Shown here: positions 1,018-32,465 of the stretch, piece after piece
How positions within the stretch are numbered: the first letter of the stretch is position 1
How the letters are laid out: every line of letters begins with the position of its first letter
From: a virus
IMG/VR virus record: IMGVR_UViG_3300048921_000583
Span: 1 to 34,210 of that record
DNA length: 34,210 bases
Direction: 5' to 3' (one strand)
Made by a program: the position numbers and the translations under genes
Notes under the pieces: model-generated
The model's input: only the letters and a program-made list of their open reading frames with translations
What the model was told of the DNA's origin: nothing
Databases searched by the model: none

Positions 1018-1806
1018 ATGACTACTGCAACGCTCGGCACATGGCGTAATCCCCCACTCGCCTACGTTGTTGCTGAGCTGGTGATTTCGCCCCATTATTC
1101 GATCGGAACCGCAATCCCGGCGATCCAAGACGCCCTGAGGTCGCAGTATCCGCGAACTGTAGAGGCCACCGAGCTATATCTAGACGGCAGTGCGACGCCG
1201 ACACCATCCCCTGCGTGGCGCCTTCTCTCTGAAGATCAAACGAGAGGCGTTCAAGTTGGGGCGAGGGCGCTTAGCCTTCATGCGACCAGCTACAGCGGTT
1301 CGGGGAGTTTTATGGAGCAGTGGAACCAAGTTCTGAATGCGCTCGGCATGGCTAATTTGCGCCCCTTCGCCGAGCGAGCAGGCCTTCGTTTCATCGATCT
1401 CATAGTCCCGAGCGAGGGTCAATCTACGCATGAATACCTTGCATCGCCGCTACAGGGTATGGCTTCGCCGACGGGTGCAGAAACCCAGCATTGCATGTGG
1501 ATTTCCTCCTACCAAATCGATGGCGTAACAGTTAACATCCGAACAGCGACTCCATCCCCAGCTGGGGCGCTATGGCCACCGAACTTCAACGCATTACCAT
1601 TACAGAAACCTACGGTACTATCGGCTGCGGAAAACGCGCTGCAAAATGGCCAGCGAATTGGTTTCATCGACACTGATTGTCTTTCCGAAATACAAAAGGT
1701 GTTCGATCCAGCCGAGGTGGGAACTGTCTATTCCAAGCTGCACGAGAAGATGTCCAAGACATTCGGGACTTTGATATCCGACTTGGCGAAAAAGGAGTGG
1801 ATGTGA
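1018..1806 (+). CDS. TIGR04255 family protein
   Basis: 262 aa. The N-terminal half matches the sporadically distributed TIGR04255 family: a proline-led start (PPLAYVVAELVIS), then a helix ending in LRSQYPR, a W-x-L-S segment, VQVGARALSLHATSY, a SFMEQWNQVLNAL helix and the family's GLRFIDLI motif (residues about 120-130). No catalytic residues are known for the family, whose function is undetermined; members are often found in accessory islands. ATG 1018 follows a GGAAA that can serve as ribosome-binding site. It is the first gene of a tight three-gene operon: its stop overlaps the GTG start of the next gene (ATGTGA). GC content is clearly lower than in the phage structural genes. A role in phage or plasmid defence is conjecture. 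Confidence 0.75.
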   Translation: MTTATLGTWRNPPLAYVVAELVISPHYSIGTAIPAIQDALRSQYPRTVEATELYLDGSATPTPSPAWRLLSEDQTRGVQVGARALSLHATSYSGSGSFMEQWNQVLNALGMANLRPFAERAGLRFIDLIVPSEGQSTHEYLASPLQGMASPTGAETQHCMWISSYQIDGVTVNIRTATPSPAGALWPPNFNALPLQKPTVLSAAENALQNGQRIGFIDTDCLSEIQKVFDPAEVGTVYSKLHEKMSKTFGTLISDLAKKEWM

Positions 1807-2570
1807 GCCACACCAATAGCATCATCACAGATGGGCGAGAACGGAGCACCAAGGCCATGTTGCACACCCGGCCCGTCACCCATTTGATCCAATCGACGCC
1901 ACTGGCGCAACGCGATCGAATTGAGTTAGATGATCCGTGGGCAAGACAGATCGTCTCGACGCACCAGAGAACGGCAACGTCTAAATTCGAGATATTTGAC
2001 GCCCAGTGGGGTACTGCGTCAAACCAACGGGTGTTTGTCGCGAAGGACAACCATATTTACGTACGGTGGTTCGAGTTTTGGTCGCGTGCGACCGGCGGCA
2101 TTCACACAGGTAATGTACGAGCGGCCCTGCCGAGAAAAGCGATGTCGGCGGCGCAGCTGCGCATCAATCAATTGACGTTGATTCAATCAGCATTTGGCCT
2201 CCCGATCCAGACCTTGGCCGAAGTTCTTTCCGTTTCCCGAGCACAGATTTATAAATGGCTGGATATATCAAACAACCTCACTTTGCAGGAAGGTAGCCAT
2301 CAGCGCATGTCGATCATCGGTCGACTTGCAACCAAGTGGAAAGAGCTTTCGAATACACCGTTGAGTCGGCTGGCGCGCGAACCGCTGGCGGACGGCAGCA
2401 CTGTCCTTCAGCGATTGTGTGGCGAAACGATAGACGAAGCGGCCGCTGGAAAGGCATTCGTTGAGCTGGCGCACCGGTTGGTGGGACTTCAGAAGTCCGC
2501 GAGCCGGCAAATGGTTGAGAAGGGCTACACGCGTCGACCTTCACGCCGATCGCTACCCTCGGATGAGTGA
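1803..2570 (+). CDS. Helix-turn-helix protein of the TIGR04255 operon
   Basis: 255 aa from GTG 1803, which overlaps the stop of the preceding gene and so suggests translational coupling; an upstream in-frame start at 1677 would overlap that gene by 130 bases and is less likely. The N-terminal ~110 residues resemble no family I know. Residues about 133-155 form a clear helix-turn-helix (LPIQTLAEVLSVSRAQIYKWL), followed by a helical region with PLSRLAREPLADGSTVLQRL, which resembles the ligand- or partner-binding tail of Xre-like antitoxins and regulators. It may regulate the operon or act as partner of the TIGR04255 protein. HTH assignment is firm; role is inferred. Confidence 0.75.
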   Translation: MSHTNSIITDGRERSTKAMLHTRPVTHLIQSTPLAQRDRIELDDPWARQIVSTHQRTATSKFEIFDAQWGTASNQRVFVAKDNHIYVRWFEFWSRATGGIHTGNVRAALPRKAMSAAQLRINQLTLIQSAFGLPIQTLAEVLSVSRAQIYKWLDISNNLTLQEGSHQRMSIIGRLATKWKELSNTPLSRLAREPLADGSTVLQRLCGETIDEAAAGKAFVELAHRLVGLQKSASRQMVEKGYTRRPSRRSLPSDE

Positions 2571-2579
2571 GGACGCAGA

Positions 2580-3419
2580 TTGTCGACAACACCGATCGGC
2601 TTTCAAATTGCAGCTCGCGGCTGGAGCTCCGGATCAGTGCTTCCTCACGAAGCTGCTGAGGAACTGAAGAAGTATCTCGCCCACCCTGGCGTTGGCTATA
2701 TGCCCTGCATAGGGAAAGACGACTGGCTCGTGGTCGTGTCTCAAACTTGCGACGTGCTTGCCCGCACGTTGTCAGCCGAACCGTTCGTGGAAATCCTCCA
2801 CTGTCGCTCCCCGGACGGTGGAAAAGTCAGATCCCAGTATGCGAGATTCAGGTCCACTCGGCTCATCGACTTTCGTCCAAATCGCACGACCCACGCTGAG
2901 CTGGTCCTGAGTGCTCACGCAACAGCTAATAGATACGTCGTCCCGCGTGAAACTCTTGTCGGCATAGATCCGGATCCAGAAAGGCGACTCGACAACGTTG
3001 CGGTACAAAAGCTTGCAGCGTGGTATGCGTTGCGTTTCTCCCGTCCGGCATGGCCCGACAACTTCGTCACGCGCATATCGAAGGATGCAAAGGAACGGCT
3101 CGAACAGATCGTCAGCGACCTCGGGGATGATCTCGAAATCCGAATAGCAATCGCTCAAAGAGATGAGGAGCTTCCCTCAACCACGCACTATAGGGTCGCA
3201 GTGTGGTTCGTCGTCGACGCGGTGGTCTGGGAGGACGATCCAGCAATGCGAGCAAATGCGACATCTTCCTTCGGCAAATTCACGTCCGAACTCGCCTCAT
3301 GTCACGGCATCGAAATCGATTTCGACGTCAGCAATGTCGCGTCCGGTGACGACTTCACTTGGCAGCAGCGGGAGTCGACAGACGAATGGAATTTCGCAAA
3401 CCTGAGCCATGCGGAATAG
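2580..3419 (+). CDS. Unrecognised protein, third gene of the TIGR04255 operon
   Basis: 279 aa from TTG 2580. The start is supported by GAGG at 2569-2572, seven bases upstream and partly within the previous stop region. The gene begins 9 bases after the HTH gene ends. The N-terminus holds a hydrophobic strand followed by SQTCDV (residues about 54-59) and EPFVEILHC (67-75); the Cys and Asp in the first motif look like conserved functional positions, but I cannot name the family. The remainder is mixed alpha/beta with many acidic residues. There is no signal peptide or membrane segment, so it is probably cytoplasmic. Codon use and GC resemble the two upstream genes, implying transfer as one unit. 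Confidence 0.7.
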   Translation: MSTTPIGFQIAARGWSSGSVLPHEAAEELKKYLAHPGVGYMPCIGKDDWLVVVSQTCDVLARTLSAEPFVEILHCRSPDGGKVRSQYARFRSTRLIDFRPNRTTHAELVLSAHATANRYVVPRETLVGIDPDPERRLDNVAVQKLAAWYALRFSRPAWPDNFVTRISKDAKERLEQIVSDLGDDLEIRIAIAQRDEELPSTTHYRVAVWFVVDAVVWEDDPAMRANATSSFGKFTSELASCHGIEIDFDVSNVASGDDFTWQQRESTDEWNFANLSHAE

Positions 3420-3782
3420 CTGTACGTCTGCAAATTGCAATTAGACAGTGCATTAGCCAGATGCCTGAACGATGTATCCAAATTCTTCGAAACCGAGCAA
3501 GTTCAGGGGCAGGTTGCTAGATCAACTAACGCTTGAACCTACACGCAGTCGTTACGCGGCATGCATCAAAACGCATCTATTTTCGATGCGATGAACCTCT
3601 CGGAAGGCCTGACACCACGGGCAACAGGCCGGTGGAATAGGCGCGTGAAAACCGAAGACCTAAGAGAATGGGCTAGGCGCGGAGGGGACTGCAGTTCGGA
3701 TCAGCTCGGCGCCACCTCAGATGGTCAGCGGCCGCTCCTTCCACTCAACGTTTCTGGTTTATCAAGCAGGCGCTGAAAACTG
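3420..3782 (+). other. Intergenic stretch without a supportable gene
   Basis: Between the TIGR04255 operon and the methyltransferase promoter. The one open frame of note (3561-3776, 71 aa) has no domain, no good ribosome-binding site and a protein-unlike composition, so I do not call it. No repeat or RNA gene was recognised. Confidence 0.5.
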
Positions 3783-3815
3783 TTGGTAACGGGACAGACC
3801 TGGGTCATAATGTCC
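3783..3815 (+). promoter_or_regulatory. Methyltransferase promoter with CCTGG and a GGACA/TGTCC inverted repeat
   Basis: TTGGTA (3783-3788), 17 bases, CATAAT (3806-3811) makes a good sigma70-type promoter 32 bases before the methyltransferase start. The spacer contains CCTGG (3799-3803), the predicted target of the enzyme encoded downstream. An inverted repeat GGACA (3792-3796) and TGTCC (3811-3815) overlaps the promoter, and a second dyad GACC-TG-GGTC lies at 3797-3806. The related enzymes M.SsoII and M.EcoRII repress their own genes through an N-terminal HTH; for M.SsoII the operator is, from memory, an inverted repeat with GGACA/TGTCC arms. Autoregulation here is therefore a reasonable inference. 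Confidence 0.6.
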
Positions 3816-3843
3816 GCTAGTTTACCCAGCGAGACCTAAATAC

Positions 3844-5109
3844 ATGACCCAAGCGGAACCCCTAGAACTTCTAAAACAAGCCCGAAATCGTTTCAGTCAG
3901 CGGGAAATTGCTGAACGAGTCGGTAGAAACGCGAAGACGATCGGTCGCTGGGAAAATGGGAAGACACCCTGTCCGGCTATGTTGGAACCGGCGTTACGCG
4001 ACATGCTTGACACCCCAACATTGATCCGGCCTGCAACGGAGCAAAGATTTCGCGTAGTTGACCTCTTCGCTGGAATAGGCGGAATCCGAATGGGATTTGA
4101 GACCCACGGAGCCGAATGCGTCTTTACCAGCGAATGGAACGATTTCTCCAAGAAAACTTACCTAGAGAACTATGGAGAGCGGCATCCGTTCGTAGGCGAC
4201 ATTGTGCCCTTCCCGGCAGAGCAGGTCCCCTCGCATGATGTGTTGCTTGCGGGGTTTCCTTGCCAGCCTTTCAGTATTGCAGGCGTTAGCAAGAAAAACT
4301 CGCTAGGTCGGCCACACGGTTTCGAATGCACCACCCAAGGGACGTTATTTTTTGACGTAGCGCGAATCATTGCGACGAAGCGACCCGCTGCTTTCCTCTT
4401 GGAAAATGTTAAAAATCTCTTGTCCCATGACAAGGGCAACACTTTCAAAGTGATTCTCCAAACGTTGCGCGAGGAGCTTGGTTATCACGTTCACTATAAG
4501 GTAGTGGATGGCCAGCACTTTACGCCGCAGCACCGTGAGCGAATCATCATCGTCGGATTTCGGGAGAAGGTCGGATTTTCTTGGGACGATTTACGTCTGC
4601 CAGTAGAGGGTCCGCTGCTGAGATCGATATTGCATAAGACTGACGGCAGCGAGCCCGTGTTGCCGTGGGATGAGGAACGTTTCTTTGCGCACAGCAAACA
4701 ATCAGTGCAGGCCAAATACACGCTGACGCCAAAACTGTGGGAGTACCTCAAGGGTTACGCCGACAAACATAAGGCAGCTGGAAACGGGTTTGGGTTTGGT
4801 ATGGCGTACGAAGACAGTGTGACGCGAACCCTATCCGCTCGCTATTACAAGGACGGTTCCGAAATTCTCGTGTTCCGAGGCAAAGGCAAGCGCCCACGTA
4901 GGCTTACGCCGAGGGAATGTGCTCGATTGATGGGCTTCCCTGATACGTTCAAGATCCCTGTCAGCGACACCCAAGCCTACCGACAATTTGGCAATAGCGT
5001 CGTCATGCCGGTAATGCGGGAGGTCGCACGGATTATGGTCCCCCATGTCCGCGAACTGATTGAGCTTCAGCGCGAGGGCACTCAACAAACACTACCGCTT
5101 TTTGCCTGA
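3844..5109 (+). CDS. Dcm/EcoRII-like DNA (cytosine-5) methyltransferase with N-terminal HTH
   Basis: 421 aa. Residues about 18-45 form an XRE-type HTH ([20 protein letters not shown]). The catalytic domain starts with motif I DLFAGIGG (73-80), then motif [10 protein letters not shown] with catalytic Cys140, motif VI LLENVKN (186-192), motif VIII QHRER (229-233), and near the C-terminus [16 protein letters not shown] and QFGNSVV (motifs IX-X). Long stretches match E. coli Dcm ([32 protein letters not shown]), so methylation of the inner cytosine of CCWGG is the best prediction. It protects the host and prophage from the EcoRII-like nuclease encoded at 6748. The stop overlaps the vsr start by one base. 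The HTH probably represses its own promoter. GC is lower than in the phage genes. Confidence 0.93.
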
Positions 5110-5594
5110 TGGTAGACATTGTGGACGCGGCCACCCGTAGTCGGATGATGTCTGGCATACGGGGCCGCAACACTAAACCAGAGATCCTCGTCCGAAGCTT
5201 GCTGCACCGTGCGGGCTTTCGCTTTCGGCTTCACGCGGCAGCTCTACCCGGCAAACCAGACATCGTGATGCCGCGCCATCGAGTAGTTGTCTTCGTGCAT
5301 GGATGTTTTTGGCATGGGCATTGTTGCGCACTGTTCAGGTGGCCGAGTACCAGACCGGATTTTTGGCAAAAGAAAATCGGTCGCAATCGCGAAAATGACG
5401 ATCGAGCGCTGGATGCGCTGCTAGTCGCCGGTTGGCGTGTCGCAATCGTGTGGGAGTGCGCCCTGAAAGGGACCCGGAAATTGGACGACGCTGAGGTGAC
5501 GGCGCGTCTGTCTGAGTGGGTCCGCAACAGCCAAGACGCGTTCTACGAGATACGCGGAAACGAAGGCGCTCTGCGGTTAAAAAGCGAAACGTAA
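5109..5594 (+). CDS. vsr: Vsr: very short patch repair endonuclease
   Basis: 161 aa. It nicks DNA 5' of the T in T:G mismatches that arise when 5-methylcytosine deaminates, starting repair back to C. The family start is present (RSRMMSGIRGRNTKPE, where the N-terminal helix enters DNA), followed by PGKPDIVM with catalytic Asp51 and HGCFWHGH with His64 and His69, at the same positions as in E. coli Vsr. The WxxxI/WxVxIVWECAL segment is also typical. It is translationally coupled to the methyltransferase (ATG overlaps its TGA), as in dcm-vsr of E. coli. The 3' end overlaps a convergent gene by 52 bases; the last ~20 residues are variable in the family. Confidence 0.95.
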   Translation: MVDIVDAATRSRMMSGIRGRNTKPEILVRSLLHRAGFRFRLHAAALPGKPDIVMPRHRVVVFVHGCFWHGHCCALFRWPSTRPDFWQKKIGRNRENDDRALDALLVAGWRVAIVWECALKGTRKLDDAEVTARLSEWVRNSQDAFYEIRGNEGALRLKSET

Positions 5595-6685
5595 TCCATG
5601 CTTGGAGCATTATGCATTGTTCCATGCAAAAGTAGTTCAACCAGCTGTGCACGCCCTGCTTCACTCAAGCTCAACCCCTCGTTCAAAAGACGAATCTTTT
5701 CCCATTTGATGCTGGACTGCGTCCGCTCACCCACACGGTGGCCGCTGTCAGACCCTACGGTGCGAAGCGAAGCTCGTTCAAAGGCGTCACCATTGAGGTC
5801 TGCCGCGAGCCAAGTCCAATACGGATCCAGTCGACTATCGTTCAGCCAGGTGACCGGTGATTCAACCTTGTCCCATTTTGGCCCCACCAAAATGATGTGC
5901 AGGGTATTTATGTTCATCTGGCCCATTGTTTCGACCGTTGCAACATGTGGACGTTTATCCAAACCAAAGGACTTATTGGCTCCCATCGCAGGGTATTTTC
6001 GTTTGAATTCGACGCATCGGACGTCGCCGCTGGGTGTTAGGACAACCGCGTCCAAGTCCGTCCCGTCCATTCCGAGCCCTGGTCCCAAAACGCAGTTCAT
6101 AAATCGCCGTTGAATGGAAAGACCCACCAGCTCCTGGTGTAAGTCGGACTTGCGCAGCCAATCAAACGCAGTCGAGGCGCTTGCGGGATCAATGTTATCC
6201 ATAGGGCGCACCGGCCGGGCGCCTTTTCTAAGGGGAAGACGCGCAATAACCGTTTCCAGCTTCTCCCAATCTTTCCACGCGGAGCCCGTGTACCTAGAGG
6301 CGATGAATTCGTTGTGAACGGGCTCGTAGCGAACTCGAAAAACAACCGTTTCTCGTTTATACGGTTCAGCTCGAAAAGCCACCAGCCGCGCAAGCATCGC
6401 ATCGTCGCAAGCGTTCCAATCATCGTCATGGTCCATAACGCGGAACCAGAACAGCGGGTTGCGATATTTGTTGTAACCTAGATGCCACCCGAATGACACC
6501 GTCAGCCCTAAAACATTGTTGGCGATAGTCTTCAATCTAAATTTGAACATCATTTCAAAAACAAAAGCATCTATGCGTCGCTTACCTTCAGCAGCCAACT
6601 GTTCAATGACGTGCTCCGTGTTGTAGTGGGAAAGCTGCCCTGCTTGTAGTTTTTCGCAGATCGACAGCATGCGATTTTCTTGCAT
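5543..6685 (-). CDS. Putative PD-(D/E)XK nuclease-like protein in the RM locus
   Basis: 380 aa from ATG 6685, preceded by a GGGA-containing purine stretch; the frame also stays open to a TTG at 6742 (399 aa), but that would leave only 5 bases to the divergent restriction gene. The key region is DGTDLDAVVLTPSGDVRCVE followed by FKRK: a D, then ExK after ~13 residues, the usual arrangement of a PD-(D/E)XK metal site. Upstream lies a helical region with LHQELVGLSIQRRF. No sequence-specific family is recognised. It lies between vsr (convergent, 52-bp overlap) and the EcoRII-like gene (divergent), so it may be a second nuclease, a specificity or control factor, or an unrelated passenger. Nuclease activity is inferred only from the motif. 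Confidence 0.7.
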   Translation of the reverse strand: MQENRMLSICEKLQAGQLSHYNTEHVIEQLAAEGKRRIDAFVFEMMFKFRLKTIANNVLGLTVSFGWHLGYNKYRNPLFWFRVMDHDDDWNACDDAMLARLVAFRAEPYKRETVVFRVRYEPVHNEFIASRYTGSAWKDWEKLETVIARLPLRKGARPVRPMDNIDPASASTAFDWLRKSDLHQELVGLSIQRRFMNCVLGPGLGMDGTDLDAVVLTPSGDVRCVEFKRKYPAMGANKSFGLDKRPHVATVETMGQMNINTLHIILVGPKWDKVESPVTWLNDSRLDPYWTWLAADLNGDAFERASLRTVGSDSGHRVGERTQSSIKWEKIRLLNEGLSLSEAGRAQLVELLLHGTMHNAPSMDYVSLFNRRAPSFPRIS

Positions 6686-6747
6686 CTTTGGTCCCGTTTT
6701 TCCTTTGAGCGCCGCTACAATAACAGCATTTTCCAAAGACAAAGAAA

Positions 6748-7998
6748 ATGAAAAGAGGCTACCTTTCCGAGTACTTCGATGGCATTGCCGCGAAACGGTT
6801 GAGCGCGGTCGAAGCGGATGTATTGCTCTCCAACCAACATGAGTTCAACGGCGTTGAGGGACTGCGAGCGATCTTGGGCGAGCCAGACGGGAAAAGCCGC
6901 TACGACGCCAAGCTCCTATATCTTAACGATCAAGACGACGATCCCATCGTAGAAGATGCCGTTTTCACCTGGTACGATGCACGTCAGCGGGCTCGAATTG
7001 AGAGGGGAGTGATGCGGTGGGAGTACCGTCTGTATTTCCCGACAACCAATGTATCGCTCAATGCAGTTGCGGGCGACCTACTCGTGATTGCCAAGCGGCG
7101 CGAGGGCGGATTGTTGGTCGTGATCGCGGAAAACGGATCGAGCATCGCTCGACAAATCGAATGGCTGTTCGGCTTTAACGACCTTGCCCATCCGGGTTTT
7201 TCTGTTAAGTCGGAGCTTGAAACAGAGCAAGATCGCATCGAGTTTGCTTCCCGCTTCATTTTGGAAAGTATTGGCGTCGTAGTCGAAACATCTGAGGTGA
7301 GTTTCTTAGATGCCATGCTGGAGCAATTCGAAGGAAAATTTCCGACCACCCGGGTATTTTCCGCCTATGCGCGCTCTACATTGAACGATGTACACGCTGC
7401 TGACTCACCGGACTCGGTCCTCATGGCCTGGATGGAGCGCGAAGAAATCCTCTTTAGAACACTGGAACGCCATCTGATCGCAGATCGACTATCCGCGGGC
7501 TTCAGCGGCGAGGTCGACGCCGGTGTCGACGTCGACGGCTTCTTATCCTTTTCACTCTCGGTGCAGAACAGACGTAAGAGTCGTGTTGGCTTGGCATTGG
7601 AAAACCATCTAGAGCACATCTTTCTCGGCTGCGGGATTCACTATTCACGGACGGCTATAACAGAGAACAAGGCCAAACCTGATTTTCTGTTTCCTGGGAG
7701 CGCGGCCTATCAAGATGCGGCGTTCGACGTTTTGAGGTTGACAATGCTGGGCGTCAAATCAACTTGTAAGGATCGATGGCGTCAGGTTCTTGCCGAGGCC
7801 GACCGCATCCAGGACAAGCATTTGCTAACGCTCGAAACTGCGATATCGACTCATCAAACCGACGAGATGGCTGACAAGCGGCTTCAACTTGTTTTGCCCA
7901 AAGGTTTACACGGCACCTATACCGACGCCCAGCAAGGATGGCTAATGGATCTCTCGACCTTCACCGCGTTGGTGCTCGAACGCCAACAGGCGCTTTAA
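6748..7998 (+). CDS. EcoRII-C-type type II restriction endonuclease
   Basis: 416 aa. Residues about 273-410 match the EcoRII catalytic domain: QNRRKSRVGLALENHLEHIF, TENKAKPDFLFPG (311-317 holds the acidic metal ligand) and MLGVKSTCKDRWRQVL with catalytic Lys337. EcoRII cleaves at CCWGG, the sequence methylated by Dcm-like enzymes, and the paired gene here is Dcm-like. The N-terminal ~250 residues do not resemble the EcoRII effector-binding domain that I know, so subtype (need for two sites) and exact target (CCWGG or a relative such as CCNGG) are uncertain. The gene diverges from the PD-(D/E)XK-like gene and would need its own promoter in the ~60-bp gap. It cuts unmodified incoming DNA. Confidence 0.9.
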   Translation: MKRGYLSEYFDGIAAKRLSAVEADVLLSNQHEFNGVEGLRAILGEPDGKSRYDAKLLYLNDQDDDPIVEDAVFTWYDARQRARIERGVMRWEYRLYFPTTNVSLNAVAGDLLVIAKRREGGLLVVIAENGSSIARQIEWLFGFNDLAHPGFSVKSELETEQDRIEFASRFILESIGVVVETSEVSFLDAMLEQFEGKFPTTRVFSAYARSTLNDVHAADSPDSVLMAWMEREEILFRTLERHLIADRLSAGFSGEVDAGVDVDGFLSFSLSVQNRRKSRVGLALENHLEHIFLGCGIHYSRTAITENKAKPDFLFPGSAAYQDAAFDVLRLTMLGVKSTCKDRWRQVLAEADRIQDKHLLTLETAISTHQTDEMADKRLQLVLPKGLHGTYTDAQQGWLMDLSTFTALVLERQQAL

Positions 7999-31723: not shown

Positions 31724-31786
31724 CAGGCCGGCCCCGCGAGGGGCTTGCCCTTCGCTTTCACCCTGCACCCCGCACCAGGAGCAAAC

Positions 31787-32209
31787 ATGTTTCGATACCC
31801 TGCCCGCATCGCAAAAGACGGCGACGGCTTTCTCGTCACGTTCCGCGATATCCCCGAGGCGATCACCGGCGGCAACACCCGCGACGAAGCGATCGAGATG
31901 GCCGCCGACGCGCTCGTGACCGCGATGGATTTCTATTTTGAAGATAAGCGCCCCGTTCCCACGCCCAGCGAAAGCAAGCGCGGTGACGTGCTTATCGAGT
32001 TGCCGGCGAGCGTCGCCGCGAAAGTGCTCTTGCTCAATGCCATGCTTTCGCAGAACGTCACGCCCTCGGAACTGGCGCGGCGACTCAACAAACCGCGTCA
32101 GGAAATTAATCGCGTGATCGACCTCGGACACGCGACGAAGATCGACACCATTGCGGCGGCCCTGTCGGCCCTCGGCATGCACCTTGAAAGCAACGCGACG
32201 CCGGCGTGA
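31787..32209 (+). CDS. hicB: HicB antitoxin
   Basis: 140 aa from ATG 31787, with AGGAG upstream. Residues 1-~55 are the HicB partial RNase H fold (RYPARIAKDGDGFLVTFRDI, PEAITGGNTRDEAIEMAADAL, DFYFED) that binds HicA; residues ~90-135 form an HTH (TPSELARRLNKPRQEINRVI) that represses the operon. Length and sequence agree with E. coli K-12 HicB (138 aa). It is followed by the second copy of the frameshifted small gene at 32236. Confidence 0.95.
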   Translation: MFRYPARIAKDGDGFLVTFRDIPEAITGGNTRDEAIEMAADALVTAMDFYFEDKRPVPTPSESKRGDVLIELPASVAAKVLLLNAMLSQNVTPSELARRLNKPRQEINRVIDLGHATKIDTIAAALSALGMHLESNATPA

Positions 32210-32235: not shown

Positions 32236-32465
32236 ATGGACTTGCCACAAGCAGACAACGCGGACCCGCCAGCGTATTCACGGCCGCGCTCGGCGTTCTG
32301 TTTCAAACTCACCCAGATAAGGCCGCACTCCTCGCGGCATGGGAGCCGATCGCGGCGTCGATGCCACTCATGATGCTGCAGAACGGCGCGACCGAAGTAG
32401 CGAGCAATGCCAACGTTGTGATTGCTCAAGGCCTCTTGCACATTGCTCGCATGGGCGTCGGATGA
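32236..32465 (+). pseudogene. Frameshifted small phage-associated gene, copy 2
   Basis: ATG 32236 starts the same protein as copy 1 (MDLPQADNADP), but a missing C in the run at 32265-32267 (CCC, against CCCC at 415-418) shifts the frame. The rest continues in another frame as ASVFTAALGVLFQTHPDKAA, then LLAAWEPIAASMPLMMLQNG, and ends at a TGA at 32463-32465. Restoring one base gives a ~76 aa, helix-rich protein. It lies 26 bases after hicB with a GGAGG-like ribosome-binding site (TTCGGAGG), so it was probably cotranscribed with the toxin-antitoxin genes. The two copies are clearly homologous over about 180 bases. Confidence 0.55.

Follow-up and report, generated by a model that had tools for sequence, protein, structure and literature searches.

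A TIGR04255 protein, an HTH protein and an SQTCD-motif protein form a recurrent three-gene cargo unit, a proposed toxin-antitoxin-like defence system

The interval between the replication gene and the portal gene of P2 phages is a defence hotspot (hotspot #1) that houses tin, old and other systems (PMC9519451, PMC9122126). The 2022 paper by Rousset et al. reports an unnamed three-gene system of this hotspot that is active against P1 (PMC9122126). CmdTAC is a toxin-antitoxin-chaperone system whose chaperone senses a phage capsid protein (PMC11618068). Here we describe a three-gene unit at positions 1018-3419 of a 34,210-nucleotide stretch of viral DNA (IMG/VR record IMGVR_UViG_3300048921_000583; hereafter the window), encoding a TIGR04255 family protein, an HTH protein and a protein with an SQTCD motif. 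No paper in the PMC literature was found under the name TIGR04255, and no title or abstract among PMC articles on three-gene, tripartite and P2-hotspot systems described this gene set. It appears to be a widespread gene set without a description in the literature and libraries searched.

The window is a Burkholderia-type prophage whose structural genes are ~79% identical over 88-90% to those of Burkholderia phages KS14 and FLC5, and the three-gene operon belongs to its cargo. The cargo forms a low-GC block between an attachment-core remnant and the P2-type portal gene. The initial annotation was right to place an attachment core beside the unit, because positions 696-741 on the minus strand are 83-87% identical, where they align, with the 3' portion of tRNA-Arg(CCG) genes, roughly half of the gene, in genomes of one bacterial order; neither ARAGORN on the whole window nor Rfam on positions 560-1020 reported a tRNA, and both miss this remnant. 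The cargo slot (1018-7998) additionally carries a Dcm-type cytosine methylase, Vsr and an EcoRII-type endonuclease (EcoRII-C), which adjoin the unit at 3844-7998; a 399-aa protein at 5543-6742 on the minus strand could not be credibly assigned to a family with Pfam, NCBIfam or PADLOC. The lower GC content first noticed for the unit stands (0.545, 0.555 and 0.558 for genes 1, 2 and 3 vs 0.622 across O to D), but low values also occur in the neighbouring restriction-modification genes (0.51-0.57) and at the right end (0.56). Elsewhere in the window, a BrnA antitoxin gene (match at 2.2e-24) occupies 1-360, its first base being that of the window, and a candidate HicB-like antitoxin was noted by eye at 31745-32209. 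The copies of a 43-base direct repeat (416-458 and 32265-32307) are 91% identical and lie 31.8 kb apart. In phage KS14 (L306, 737-4578), DNA partitioning and replication initiation genes precede the portal gene in place of this cargo.

All three genes of the unit lie on the plus strand. Gene 1 (1018-1806, ATG start) encodes a 262-aa member of TIGR04255, which scores 98.5 bits over residues 9-261 against a curated cut-off of 30 and keeps the family-invariant residues R120, G122, R124, P131, D218 and D220. Gene 2 (1803-2570, GTG start) encodes a 255-aa protein whose match to HTH_23 (E 3e-4, residues 119-154) falls below Pfam's cut-off. The 279-aa product of gene 3 (2580-3419, TTG start) carries the SQTCD motif at codons 54-58 (2739-2753), which reads [ST][QH]xCD in most relatives; its C and D are invariant in 62 aligned relatives. 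The protein keeps the family-invariant G18, C57, D58, W148, R155, Y204 and S276, and has WSSG in the window vs WRQG in relatives. Verified base by base, the genes are intact and as tightly coupled as originally reported: genes 1 and 2 overlap by 4 bases, and a 9-base gap with GAGG at 2569-2572 separates gene 2 from the TTG start of gene 3. Searches of Pfam, NCBIfam, PADLOC and PHROGs gave nothing for gene 3 at E ≤ 1e-3, and PDB sequence searches with the profiles of all three proteins returned weak HTH matches, for gene 2 only. The PADLOC search that the initial annotation had proposed as a check (PADLOC-DB 2.0.0) gave no match to genes 1 and 3 of the window and weak matches only to gene 2 and its relatives; genes 1 and 3 of two E. 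coli copies and one Klebsiella plasmid, and gene 3 of locus L021, were equally without a match. A hydrophobic stretch above the hydropathy cut-off occurs in 53 of 122 distinct gene 2 proteins. As a chaperone-addiction signal it was dropped for the window because the window's own protein (L001) stays below the cut-off, its best stretch lying in the HTH region.

The proposal of a functional unit had been staked on the three families occurring together in other genomes. Profile scanning found them in the same order and on the same strand in 166 of 178 records from several phyla, a proportion that is not a population frequency because the queries favour complete units. Contigs recovered by both viral scans enter the 178 records twice, and L001 is the window's own unit; the non-redundant set has 73 representatives with less than 90% gene 1 identity. 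Scanning genomes with gene 1 returned 80 loci; the viral scans returned 45 loci with gene 3 and 42 with gene 1, mostly on identical contigs. Single-sequence scans of viral contigs with gene 2 or gene 3 found no relative, and subset alignments were used because the full-family alignments have no stretch conserved enough for scanning. By tblastn, 12 plasmid records matched gene 1. In the 11 inspected, the TIGR04255 gene is followed by one for a smaller protein, often annotated as HTH, and in 10 then by a third gene for a protein of ~235-305 aa; on a Rhodococcus plasmid genes 1 and 2 are followed by insertion sequences instead. Leave-one-out profiles against the plasmid relatives showed homology to the window's proteins for each of the three families (gene 2 at 4e-11, gene 3 at 1.7e-25). 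The unit is also present on many chromosomal contigs.

In all 122 distinct units a start codon for gene 2 is present no more than 30 nt from the stop codon of gene 1, and the estimated distance from gene 2 to gene 3 has a median of 10 nt. Between an E. coli and an Escherichia sp. copy, codon differences are mostly third-position in all three genes. Incomplete cases among the 178 records are mainly contig ends. Genes 1 and 2 are kept where gene 3 is absent or shortened (L004, L049, L076, L084, L089 and L137/L148), a direction that loci fetched by gene 1 are biased to reveal, and the reverse loss was seen only at contig ends or in a fragment (L136).

A portal gene lies downstream of the unit in 55 loci (16 non-redundant, including the window) and directly beside it in 54 fetched loci, which comprise 15 non-redundant relatives. 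The distance is 27-344 nt outside the window and 4753 nt within it, because the restriction-modification genes intervene. In annotated E. coli copies a replication endonuclease gene lies on one side and the portal gene on the other. The relatives thus sit at hotspot #1, between gene A and portal gene Q; the window matches this position on the portal side only, its other side being the tRNA-Arg attachment remnant and not gene A. The relatives' place in a known defence hotspot (PMC9519451, PMC9122126) lends weight to the defence role suggested in the initial annotation. We claim no enrichment of defence genes around the unit, because each PADLOC family matched at most two of 150 neighbour proteins; methylase and SoFic matches had two members each.

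A candidate operator precedes gene 1. In the window, pattern matching located the direct repeat TGTCCAC-N5-TGTACACTA at 953-973 on the plus strand, starting 65 bases upstream of the gene. Relatives have TGTCAAC-N5-TGTAAACT, from which both half-sites of the window differ by A to C at the same position. A looser pattern, TGTC[AC]AC-N5-TGTA[AC]ACTA, was derived from the E. coli copies and the window and admits the window's variant; with up to two mismatches it occurs in 92 of 117 distinct module upstream regions vs 0 of 539 background stretches. The element sits 37-100 nt before gene 1 in most units, and base counts over 112 regions show its half-sites to be strongly kept. Against the strict pattern the window's best match has 2 mismatches, a level reached by 2 of 5000 simulated upstreams, and no shuffle of the window sequence gives a match; the window's match is supportive but not independent, because the looser pattern was drawn up with its copy in view. 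The element belongs to one branch of the family, since TIGR04255 loci from random genomes, those with divergent genes of the gene 2/gene 3 type included, lack it at up to three mismatches. The 160 bases before gene 1 of the window contain no exact 7-base inverted repeat whose loop is shorter than 12 bases. A conserved candidate element at this site supports the earlier suggestion that the HTH protein controls the unit.

The structure of gene 3 was modelled by AlphaFold2 on the relative L021 (pLDDT 87.6), which is 25% identical to the window's protein. In this predicted model residues 4-138 match the MazF, Kid and CcdB toxins; mapped onto the window, the domain would span approximately 2610-3047 on the plus strand. 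Foldseek matched the model to MazF-mt9 with a probability of 1.00, and MazF, Kid and CcdB toxins dominate the VIA-align matches listed, with Z up to 8.9, slightly above the 7-8 that the tool usually gives as the top score when a model lacks a clear match. Sequence comparison did not extend this to MazF itself: hhalign of gene 3 against the MazF profile gave a non-significant probability of 0.0-0.3%, and PF02452 (MazF/PemK) was absent from the Pfam scans of the window's protein and of 10 aligned members. The N-terminal half of gene 3 thus has, in the predicted structure, a MazF/CcdB-like fold, a resemblance in fold only; the identification of gene 3 as a true MazF was dropped because sequence profiles do not support it. 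This half may also occur as a stand-alone protein, since two Acinetobacter phage records (CAKLQH020000048 and CAKLQF020000006) match L021 gene 3 in residues 5-148 only.

The TIGR04255 model in NCBIfam names no function. In evenly drawn genomes the family was found in 30 of 398 (phylum of G001), 26 of 296 (G005) and 13 of 146 (G003), the centres coming from loci titled Methylomonas, an Acidothermus MAG and Fischerella. Of the 57 random-genome loci with enough flank, 44 have the TIGR04255 gene followed by two or more genes in operon spacing, and only 13 have an upstream gene in such spacing; TIGR04255 thus usually opens such an operon in random genomes. Third genes at these loci are exchanged. 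Those above Pfam cut-offs are MazF (1.1e-18), PIN (6.8e-11) and HEPN (4.7e-8), one each; a second HEPN and a HicA match fall under the cut-offs, and many third genes match no known family. One unrecognised family with an ExLxR...AF...LSV signature recurs (L199:581-991, L289:2702-3106 and L276:2520-2978); the two members scanned (L199 and L276) had no Pfam match, and the PDB returned only an MHC chain at E 0.017. Fold searches with gene 1 returned guanido kinase, TBP and AdoMetDC-like rows at Z ≤ 8.9, along with a single unnamed protein of BFVD at 8.5e-6; they were set aside as a functional clue because the fold is uninformative, and the role given to gene 1 below is therefore a guess.

On sequence and predicted structure, the balance of evidence tips towards the unit being a modular three-component toxin-antitoxin-like prophage cargo, most likely an anti-phage system of the abortive-infection type. 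Gene 3 would be the toxin, as is suggested by its MazF/CcdB-like predicted fold, the loss of gene 3 alone in degraded loci and mainly, from few recognised cases, the exchange of third genes with toxin families, all in line with the effector role initially envisaged for the third protein; it probably acts on RNA or on some other central target. The HTH protein may bind the 953-973 element, act as repressor of the operon and contribute to neutralising gene 3, and would then be the likely antitoxin and autoregulator. The TIGR04255 protein, the constant component of many such operons with exchanged third genes, would most likely keep the system inactive, sense infection and release the toxin, as a sensor or antitoxin partner. 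We regard as evenly poised the broader reading in which TIGR04255 is the hallmark of a superfamily of toxin-antitoxin-like defence systems, each of three genes, that extends across bacterial phyla and has one branch in P2-type hotspots. Its constant protein would sense or restrain, and its toxins would be interchangeable, among them SQTCD proteins with a MazF/CcdB-like fold, true MazF, PIN, HEPN and an unknown family.

Other readings were weighed against these data. The roles could instead be reversed, with the constant TIGR04255 protein acting as effector enzyme and the third, variable protein as trigger or sensor: TIGR04255 has invariant R, D and G residues and is the constant part, and variable partners can be sensors. 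We consider this reversal unlikely, since some of the variable partners belong to toxin families recognised by Pfam and degraded loci lose gene 3 and not gene 1, though loci fetched by gene 1 favour that direction. It is similarly improbable that the unit acts in lysogenic conversion, addiction or prophage maintenance without action on phages. Its presence on plasmids and many chromosomal contigs speaks for such a role, as addiction would serve plasmids; the repeated occupation of P2 defence hotspot #1 speaks against it, and the methylase and SoFic matches among the neighbours decide nothing.

There is also a small probability that the unit is the unnamed three-gene system of Rousset et al. 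(PMC9122126), with which it shares the hotspot, the number of genes and their hypothetical products. Arguing against this identity, the unit is rare in E. coli, where the Escherichia sp. copy had matches in 19 of 5426 genomes. PADLOC, which we take to hold models of the 2022 system, gave in its 2023 database no match to genes 1 and 3 of the two E. coli copies tested.

If the preferred toxin-antitoxin-like reading is correct, TIGR04255, named without a function by NCBI, gains a testable role, and the proposed rule is one of a constant protein combined with several interchangeable toxins. Should the constant protein sense infection, one component could explain how phages trigger unrelated toxins. 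E. coli MFDS1001074 and CX08 carry the unit, and a copy in an E. coli food isolate makes the system testable in laboratory strains.

The unit can be set beside four known groups. Like the hotspot #1 systems of P2 phages (tin, old and others; PMC9519451, PMC9122126), it sits next to the portal gene, in the same slot, in 15 non-redundant relatives; unlike them, genes 1 and 3 of the window are without a PADLOC match. With the type II modules MazEF, Kid-Kis and CcdAB it shares the predicted fold of the gene 3 N-terminal part, a DNA-binding partner gene and an operon with a candidate operator, whereas it has a TIGR04255 gene in front, and its gene 3 carries an additional C-terminal part and does not match MazF at the sequence level. 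Its first gene is a member of TIGR04255 (NCBIfam), here set within a recurring three-gene operon. CmdTAC (PMC11618068) resembles it in having three genes and a toxin restrained by two partners; the CmdTAC toxin is an ADP-ribosyltransferase, whereas the candidate here is MazF/CcdB-like, and the chaperone there is SecB-like, whereas TIGR04255 had no SecB-like match among the fold matches listed, which excludes nothing.
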